From Nodosilinea sp. FACHB-141 (GTDB lineage: Bacteria > Cyanobacteriota > Cyanobacteriia > Phormidesmidales > Phormidesmidaceae), in assembly GCF_014696135.1 (NCBI RefSeq), contig NZ_JACJPP010000010.1:34922-98921 (forward strand): 64,000 nucleotides of DNA. Direction: 5' to 3'. Under the pieces are notes generated by a model, which did no database searches, was not told the DNA's origin, and saw only the letters and a program-made list of their open reading frames with translations. Made by a program: the position numbers and the translations under genes. Below, piece by piece: positions 9,893-11,076 of the stretch. Position 1 is the stretch's first letter, and the number at the start of each line of letters is the position of its first letter.

Positions 9893-10414
9893 ATGGCCTT
9901 TGATGTCTTTTCTAAGGTAGTTTCCCAAGCCGATAGCCGAGGTTCTTACCTTAGTGACGATCAGGTTGATGCGTTGATTAACCTGGTCAAAGACGGCAAT
10001 AAGCGCGTCGATGCTGTTAACCGCATTACCAGCAATTCGTCAGCCATTGTCGCCAGTGCCGCTCGCGAATTATTTGCTGAGCAGCCTCAGCTCACTGCTC
10101 CCGGCGGCAACGCCTATACAAACCGACGGGCAGCAGCCTGCCTGCGCGATTTAGAAATTATTTTGCGCTACGTGACCTACGCTACTTTTGCCGGTGATGC
10201 TAGCGTTCTAGAAGATCGCGCCCTCAATGGTCTGCGTGAAACCTACGTGGCTTTAGGTACCCCTGGCGCTTCGGTAGCAGCCGGCATCGAAAAACTCAAA
10301 GAAGCTTCCATTCGCATTGTTAACGACCCTGCTAACATCACCCAAGGCGATTGCAGCTCGCTTGTTTCTGAATTGTCGGGATATTTTGATCGGGCGGCGG
10401 CGGCGGTAGTCTAG
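9893..10414 (+). CDS. cpcB: Phycocyanin beta subunit, sulfur-depleted (Cpc3-like)
   Basis: This 173-residue phycobilisome rod subunit aligns from end to end with CpcB (ITSNSSAIVASAARELFAEQPQ, GGNAYTNRRAAACLRD, GYFDRAAAAV). The two bilin-attachment cysteines are C83 and C154 (usual 82 and 153, shifted by one extra N-terminal residue), and the methylated-Asn site is retained in GGNAYT. The only Met is the initiator: the usual Met before EIILRY is L87, and the usual free Cys of EDRCLNG is A110. This is the hallmark of the sulfur-limitation phycocyanin (cpc3) described in Calothrix PCC 7601. AGGAG precedes the ATG. It is first of a two-gene unit with cpcA; no linker or lyase genes are adjacent. 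Confidence 0.95.
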   Translation: MAFDVFSKVVSQADSRGSYLSDDQVDALINLVKDGNKRVDAVNRITSNSSAIVASAARELFAEQPQLTAPGGNAYTNRRAAACLRDLEIILRYVTYATFAGDASVLEDRALNGLRETYVALGTPGASVAAGIEKLKEASIRIVNDPANITQGDCSSLVSELSGYFDRAAAAVV

Positions 10415-10584
10415 TGCTTTACCCAGCAAAAGTGACAGGTTACGGGCCAGGTTTAGGTACAAAGCGTGAGGCATGCCATGAGCCTTAATCTTTTACACCT
10501 TTTGCTCCAGGGGCTCAAATCTAGCTTGCCACGATCAAATTCTGTTTTACCCCTTCACTTATTTACGTTTGAGGTAATTTTTCC

Positions 10585-11076
10585 ATGACAAAAACACCCT
10601 TAACCGAGGCGATCAACACTGCCGACTCCCAGGGGCGGTTCTTGAGCAGTGCCGAGTTTCAGGTGGCCTTTGGCCGTTTTCGCCAGGCCGAAAACACCCT
10701 AACGGCAGCTAAAACCTTAGCCAGCAAAGCTGACAGCCTAGCCCAGGCCGCCGCTAATGCGGTGTACCAAAAATTTCCCTACACCAACCAATTGCAGGGG
10801 CCGAACTACGCCGCTGACGATCGCGGCAAAGCCAAATGTGTACGCGACATCGGCTACTATCTGCGCATTATTAGCTATGGCCTGATCGTAGGTGGCACTG
10901 GCCCCATCGATGATTATCTGGTGGCTGGGCTAGCTGAAATCAACAGCACCTTTGAGCTATCGCCCAGTTGGTACATTGAGGCTTTGAAACATATCAAAGC
11001 CAACCATGGGCTCAGCGGCGATCCTGCCGTAGAGGTCAATACTTACATTGACTACGTTATTAATGCCCTTAGCTAG
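10585..11076 (+). CDS. cpcA: Phycocyanin alpha subunit, sulfur-depleted (Cpc3-like)
   Basis: This 163-residue partner of the upstream beta subunit has the single bilin Cys at C85 (GKAKCVRDIGYYLR) and the conserved end SPSWYIEALKHIKANHGL. As in the beta subunit, Met occurs only at the start, and all non-chromophore Met/Cys positions common in CpcA are replaced: TQMQGPNY becomes NQLQGPNY, and the LRMVTYCLVVGG segment becomes LRIISYGLIVGG. It is 170 bases downstream of cpcB with its own ribosome site (GAGG). The pair would form alpha-beta monomers for rods under sulfur scarcity, borrowing linkers and lyases encoded elsewhere (inference). Confidence 0.95.
   Translation: MTKTPLTEAINTADSQGRFLSSAEFQVAFGRFRQAENTLTAAKTLASKADSLAQAAANAVYQKFPYTNQLQGPNYAADDRGKAKCVRDIGYYLRIISYGLIVGGTGPIDDYLVAGLAEINSTFELSPSWYIEALKHIKANHGLSGDPAVEVNTYIDYVINALS

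Follow-up and report, generated by a model that had tools for sequence, protein, structure and literature searches.

That an antenna protein can adaptively lose its sulfur amino acids is a classic finding that, to our knowledge, is known from one strain. The cpc3 phycocyanin of Calothrix/Tolypothrix sp. PCC 7601, reportedly described as sulfur-depleted by Mazel and Marliere in 1989 and by Gutu et al. in 2011, is said to be a second copy beside the ordinary one and to be encoded in an operon that includes its own sulfur-poor linkers. AtsK and TauD dioxygenases, for their part, are induced in sulfur-starved proteobacteria. According to PMC4424289, the antenna proteins that PCC 7601 produces in low sulfate are depleted in these amino acids. 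A sulfur-depleted phycocyanin as such is already known from this organism.

The locus described here lies in the window—by which we mean the whole 64,000-nucleotide stretch of Nodosilinea sp. FACHB-141 DNA that was analysed (genome G000)—and encodes a phycocyanin pair that, like cpc3, is depleted in both Met and Cys. Unlike the cpc3 operon with its reported linkers, the window pair is linker-less and sits beside an AtsK-like gene and a fusion of FAD-NAD(P)-binding and metallo-beta-lactamase-fold domains (FAD-MBL). Also unlike cpc3, its type is patchily distributed in the genus of Nodosilinea sp. FACHB-131, where it occurs only together with MetY. The AtsK-like gene differs from proteobacterial AtsK in lying 3 kb from a light-harvesting gene whose presence pattern it shares. 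What is new is this linker-less version, joined by a Met/Cys-free AtsK-like dioxygenase and the FAD-MBL fusion in a 7.5-kb accessory block; neither a linker-less depleted pair nor such a cassette is described in the titles and opening lines of abstracts of the open literature searched.

Positions 9893–11076 encode a second, sulfur-stripped phycocyanin; we consider it likely that it replaces ordinary phycocyanin in the phycobilisome rods under sulfur limitation, which would likely let the cell continue light harvesting during sulfur shortage. The beta gene cpcB (9893..10414, + strand) encodes 173 aa with Met1, Cys83 and Cys154 as its only sulfur residues, and the alpha gene cpcA (10585..11076, + strand) encodes 163 aa with only Met1 and Cys85. 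Besides the ORF translations and the match to solved structures, their identity is given by the NCBIfam C-phycocyanin equivalogs, which both subunits passed (TIGR01339, 294.5 bits vs 279.3 needed, for beta; TIGR01338, 278.5 bits vs 269.45 needed, for alpha). Aligned to 6JPR and 5OOK, beta 83, beta 154 and alpha 85 correspond to the standard bilin cysteines beta 82, beta 153 and alpha 84; the two subunits show the sulfur-sparing residue pattern, with no Met or Cys except the initiators and the three bilin sites. The translations bear out what the first-pass annotation had read from the letters, both for these residues and for the positions that are normally Met or Cys (beta 87 Leu and 110 Ala; alpha 70 Leu, 95 Ile and 99 Gly). 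Further emptied sites are beta 80 Ala and 135 Leu, and alpha 100 Leu and 108 Ile.

As background we took 20 sampled 20-kb stretches of this genome, whose 259 ORFs of 150 aa or more average 1.76% internal Met and 0.90% Cys. By that measure, the three Met+Cys in the 334 residues of the pair had a P of 0.022, and the absence of internal Met a P of 0.0027. Composition alone, by which the pair is only mildly unusual, was rejected as proof of depletion; the main evidence, which argues strongly for it, is the comparison with ordinary rows. Chance or drift, that is, a decaying paralogue that happens to be low in Met and Cys, could draw on this overall P of about 0.02, yet we regard it as extremely improbable: the depleted cpcB is under strong purifying selection (dN/dS 0.03–0.09 in five of six comparisons, the dS of the sixth not being computable), the three bilin cysteines are retained in 22/22 depleted rows in which the other sites have been emptied, and the depleted pairs do not form one clade (see below).

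The reading of the pair as a sulfur-sparing isoform had been made to depend in part on the genome holding another cpcBA, and it does: an ordinary, Met/Cys-normal cpcBA lies on contig C21, accompanied by linkers, by CpcE and CpcF (both above NCBIfam cut-offs) and by a CpeS-family gene. Its beta subunit has four internal Met and three Cys, its alpha subunit three of each. The Met+Cys comparison that the first-pass annotation had suggested hence gives, initiators excluded, 3 sulfur atoms per alpha-beta unit in the window copy vs 13 in the ordinary copy, so that the window pair saves 10 of 13 and retains its chromophore sites. Across the alignment, beta 110 and beta 135 are Met or Cys in 100% of ordinary rows and have been emptied in the depleted ones. 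The emptied sites often converge on the same residue, with Ala at beta 80 and Leu at beta 87 in 22/22 depleted rows, Ala at beta 110 in 20/22, and Leu at beta 135 and Ile at alpha 95 in 21/22 each. As had also been noted earlier, the pair stands without linkers or lyases: none of the nine PF00427 matches in the genome falls on its contig, C10, and the scan of window proteins turned up no lyase. Given the lack of a linker gene on C10, we classed the pair as a pair-only variant, not a cpc3 operon, and for the same reason the linkers—and with them the lyases—of the ordinary operon would presumably assemble and pigment it.

Among the CpcB homologues listed (120 of 4648 matches), 85 lack internal Met and have two Cys. 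Of the 388 cyanobacterial genomes sampled, at least 20 carry a depleted pair, with 18 beta subunits free of internal Met and two with one; this count is a lower bound, the loci having been taken from the best 30 matches, to which regions from G272 (depleted) and G340 (ordinary) were added. We built a careful tree from the joint beta and alpha alignment, with columns holding Met or Cys in at least two rows masked and two long rows (L121 and L125) dropped; its 21 depleted rows are 20 from loci plus 6JPR. A single clade of all depleted pairs was rejected (p-AU 6.7e-58 for the 21 rows of the careful tree, 0.0093 for 20 rows of a quick tree). Two Nostocaceae rows (L069 and L079) and that of G126 (L171) stand apart from the other depleted pairs, and the remaining 18 fall into three clades, namely that of the window, one of 10 rows and a Nostocales-type one that includes 6JPR. 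Constrained to one clade on the masked alignment, these 18 gave a p-AU of 0.508 and may be one. We do not claim a single depleted clade including the window, which had 98* support for 17 rows in a quick masked tree only, disappeared once 6JPR was added and was not recovered in the careful tree. Because the depleted pairs are not one clade, Met and Cys were probably stripped out on two or more occasions; a single loss followed by regain stands as a formal alternative. The window pair and the Nostocales sulfur-depleted pairs may have one origin.

One depleted pair is plasmid-borne, on pA of Kovacikia minuta CCNUW1 (NZ_CP083583.1, the same position as G310), and this plasmid also carries a MetY of the window type (P0261, protein database). 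A plasmid of Pseudanabaena PCC 7367 carries an ordinary pair (beta with five internal Met and three Cys), so a place on a plasmid does not set depleted pairs apart.

Among solved structures, the window beta subunit is best matched by 6JPR, the phycocyanin of Nostoc sp. R76DM (N-PC). Over 170+161 aligned residues it has, like the window pair, no Met, and Cys at the three bilin sites only; in the careful tree it groups with the Nostocales-type pairs L166 and L096, unlike the window's clade. In PMC6614406, N-PC is reported to absorb maximally at 611 nm, shifted some 10 nm to the blue, and to differ by twelve substitutions that the authors explain as compensatory packing; in five of these a Met or Cys is lost. 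The blue shift and the authors' explanation speak for a rival reading in which the pair is a paralogue for light colour or another stress—for instance a blue-shifted rod phycocyanin—and its Met/Cys loss a by-product of packing or of oxidation avoidance, which would remove both residues too. We hold this to be unlikely, as it leaves unexplained the sulfur-free linkers, the sulfur-gene neighbourhood and the joint presence with a sulfur-free AtsK-like gene and a sulfur-poor MetY that are described below. The "blue-shifted Nostoc phycocyanin" itself shows the sulfur-sparing isoform pattern; in a term search, the main text of PMC6614406 gave no hit for words that start with sulfur, methionine or cysteine.

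BG11 is a sulfate-containing medium. According to PMC6614406, the R76DM cells were grown in BG11, the 6JPR sequence was deduced from the genome, and N-PC was purified, pigmented and crystallised. On these statements, either cells in replete medium make the depleted copy too or a different copy was crystallised. If it was indeed the depleted copy that crystallised, depleted phycocyanin folds, binds bilins and forms hexamers, and the 6JPR type would not be confined to sulfur starvation. The growth in ordinary medium also speaks for a second rival, a constitutive low-sulfur phycocyanin of strains from chronically sulfur-poor habitats instead of a switchable isoform, as does the patchy presence by strain. 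We judge this to be quite improbable, given that the genome retains the ordinary operon too and that the window pair is preceded by a long leader of its own, whose tandem dyads are conserved across six carriers.

This leader holds two identical dyads (TTGTAGTTGCAGAAACAA), predicted regulator site 1 at 9530..9547, which is recognisable in six of the seven carriers within the genus (not in G275), and predicted site 2 at 9572..9589, 42 bp downstream of the first. A third, degenerate dyad, better preserved in some relatives, lies 72 bp upstream of the first (9458..9475). Downstream of the array follows a predicted core promoter (TTTTGTAACAAAA ... TGCTATATAA; 9606..9641, + strand), alignable in the same six carriers and not in G275; a sigma-70 consensus scan did not report it. 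The pattern TGT-N10-ACA resembles Crp-family sites. Two similar dyads, further upstream and likewise 72 bp apart, occur in Pantanalinema (L035); most of the other depleted loci showed no array of this kind within 500 bp, nor did G275. We propose that sulfur shortage would switch on the pair through a regulator binding the tandem TTGT-N10-ACAA dyads upstream of the conserved promoter-like stretch, its sulfur-responsiveness being suggested by neighbours and composition. A genome-wide scan with two patterns found, beyond the two window sites, one extra one-mismatch place per pattern, as many as a reversed control; no genome-wide regulon could therefore be derived from the dyad, and the pattern is essentially confined to the cpcBA promoter. 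An Rfam search of the window at the gathering threshold gave no SAM or other sulfur riboswitch.

Two regulators, one of the Crp family (39107–39754, + strand) and one of the LysR family (41535–42470, − strand), are also encoded where the window is rich in sulfur genes. Both were rejected as cassette-specific, since region 38291–44703 is kept in G004, a relative without either of the blocks described next.

G004 is a close relative (96% identity with G000 in ordinary cpcB), and at its syntenic locus the interval between window positions 3747 and 11276 measures 936 bp, with a DsbA-family gene, instead of 7.5 kb. The RecQ-family gene, dioxygenase, fusion and cpcBA are missing there as a single block, which we term cassette 1 (3748..11275). 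The dioxygenase (6033..6950, − strand; 305 aa) is of the AtsK/TauD type by profile and by match to solved structures; it is divergent from the FAD-MBL fusion gene (7113..9422, + strand, assigned from profile matches), and both lie upstream of cpcBA. Its best solved relative is AtsK (1OIH, Pseudomonas putida alkylsulfatase; E 6e-98, vs 1.7e-59 for TauD, 1GQW), and its HTD motif, presumably of the iron site, aligned; against the NCBIfam taurine dioxygenase model it stayed below the cut-off (255.8 of 313). It has no internal Met and no Cys, a state reached by 0/259 background ORFs and shared by 97 of the 120 homologues among the matches listed, itself included. A second, less depleted dioxygenase copy with 1–3 internal Met and 1–3 Cys is present in five of seven carrier genomes. 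The RecQ-family helicase gene (3818..5461, − strand), placed inside the indel by comparison with G004 and named by profile, is not sulfur-depleted.

In cassette 2 (47155..50848), a MetX-MetY-CysK block is missing at the syntenic G004 locus except for a 5′ remnant of MetX, some 205 bp long, that is a sign of loss there. MetY, an O-acetylhomoserine sulfhydrylase of 430 aa (48414..49706, − strand; profile and genus search), lies 37 kb from cpcBA and has one internal Met and no Cys. Its neighbours MetX, a homoserine O-acetyltransferase (47212..48312, − strand), and CysK, a cysteine synthase (49835..50824, − strand), are not sulfur-depleted, nor are a YeeE-type transporter and TauE. We had considered the sulfur-free AtsK-like enzyme and the sulfur-poor MetY as products of the island, and rejected this: in its 282 aligned residues P. 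putida AtsK likewise has neither Met nor Cys, and the 120 MetY homologues among the matches listed contain 1.5 Met+Cys on average, so the depletion is family-wide. Met/Cys-freeness as an AtsK family trait is consistent with enzymes made in sulfur famine.

Outside both cassettes lie two genes for SsuA-type sulfonate-binding proteins (216..1340 and 1364..2440, both − strand), so placed because G004 keeps both; the second protein has only Met28 and Cys37 as internal sulfur residues, Cys37 presumably being the lipobox Cys. A two-domain rhodanese (54982..55932, + strand) has Cys268 as its sole Cys, presumably that of the active-site loop, and a BLH-type protein (52538–52999) has a single Cys, in HCx5R, seemingly the catalytic loop. 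Given these motif roles, MetY, the rhodanese, the SsuA-type protein at 1364–2440 and the BLH-type protein look stripped to little beyond apparent essentials. The pair had initially been described as lying next to sulfonate, sulfate-ester and persulfide genes. The sulfate-ester part stands through the AtsK-like gene and the sulfonate part through the binding proteins; a persulfide role has sub-cut-off matches only, the fusion failing the persulfide dioxygenase models (Blh, 86.6 of 625 bits; GloB, 114.3 of 200.8 bits).

Within the genus, depleted cpcB, dioxygenase (E <= 1e-60) and MetY (E <= 1e-100) are present in the identical 7 of 26 genomes (G000, G008, G237, G184, G332, G204 and G275). Eighteen of the other 19 have an ordinary cpcB, counted by sequence; the 83% complete G359 gave no cpcB match. 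By simple counting, with relatedness ignored, two such sets would coincide by chance once in 657,800, and on the ordinary cpcBA tree, which covers 17 of the genus genomes, the presence state requires five changes. This is an accessory set, with a single pattern of presence for all its parts. Between G204 and G332, ordinary cpcB is 83.0% identical and depleted cpcB 98.5%, the depleted protein being the same in both, which speaks for transfer. Mobility between lineages is the best reading of these identities and of the plasmid copy, and the earlier suggestion of a mobile or modular set is upheld by the block missing in G004, the joint presence, the near-identical depleted copies despite a 17% difference in ordinary cpcB and the Kovacikia plasmid. 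In G332, a second, partial MetY match with an internal stop codon (L224; C2:265762-266646) lies near the intact MetY.

The neighbourhood comparison left out the duplicates L155, L156, L159 and L163 and did not include the window or G008. At least one sulfur marker lay within 10 kb of 11/21 depleted loci vs 0/74 ordinary cpcB loci (Fisher 4.5e-9), where the markers are 12 window proteins and hence favour the window's kin, the loci are not independent and flanks are cut at contig ends. Outside the window's clade, 6/16 depleted loci had a marker vs 0/74 ordinary ones (Fisher 1.3e-5). A marker-free test that left out phycobilisome genes counted neighbours with Met+Cys below 0.47%: 16/210 at depleted loci vs 5/405 at ordinary loci (Fisher 7.6e-5), and 10/139 outside the window's clade (Fisher 8e-4). 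In other lineages, a rod linker without internal Met and without Cys lay within 10 kb at 8/21 depleted loci. At L167 and L168, depleted and ordinary cpcBA are oppositely oriented within 10 kb, and a linker without internal Met or Cys stands beside the depleted pair. Near the depleted cpcBA of L162 (G154) lie two linkers free of internal Met and Cys, a 474-aa amidase (PF01425) equally free of them, and three further sulfur-poor proteins.

In our main reading, the replacement antenna belongs to what would be a sulfur-famine kit. The AtsK-like enzyme would free sulfite from sulfate esters or sulfonates, MetX, MetY and CysK would help with its fixation, and low-sulfur parts would serve to rebuild the antenna, which is probably a major sink of protein sulfur. 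Counting against this reading are the 10/21 depleted loci without any of the 12 sulfur markers, the undepleted MetX, CysK and RecQ-family proteins, the family-wide depletion of AtsK and MetY, the growth of R76DM in BG11, the dyads missing in G275 and at most depleted loci elsewhere, and the ordinary pair on a Pseudanabaena plasmid. More tentatively, and at somewhat short of an even chance, we suggest that cyanobacteria share a two-locus, transferable sulfur-famine kit. Strains would swap as a unit a linker-less, sulfur-stripped phycocyanin driven by a phased operator of three dyads, an AtsK free of Met and Cys, and a MetY almost free of sulfur, one kit rebuilding both antenna and sulfur supply, with 6JPR as a solved structure of the antenna type.

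The trait is both recurring, in pairs that are not one clade, and accessory, and carriers and non-carriers within the genus differ by a few kilobases at the locus, which opens the way to natural experiments. Closely related strains that have or lack the cassette, a defined set of ten sites emptied per alpha-beta unit in comparison with the ordinary copy, and a crystal structure with a depleted sequence allow a direct test of whether elemental cost shapes protein sequence, and with what effect on antenna function.

Two minor observations concern the surroundings of the cassettes. Short dispersed repeats (around 2726–2820, 49700–49770, 54230–54300 and 60890–60940), with many matches on both strands in related genomes, resemble small mobile or palindromic elements. 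Just outside cassette 1, a fluoride riboswitch (RF01734; 11288–11364, + strand; 51.6 bits, cut-off 34) lies directly upstream of a Na+/H+ exchanger-like gene with a universal-stress domain (11450–13087).
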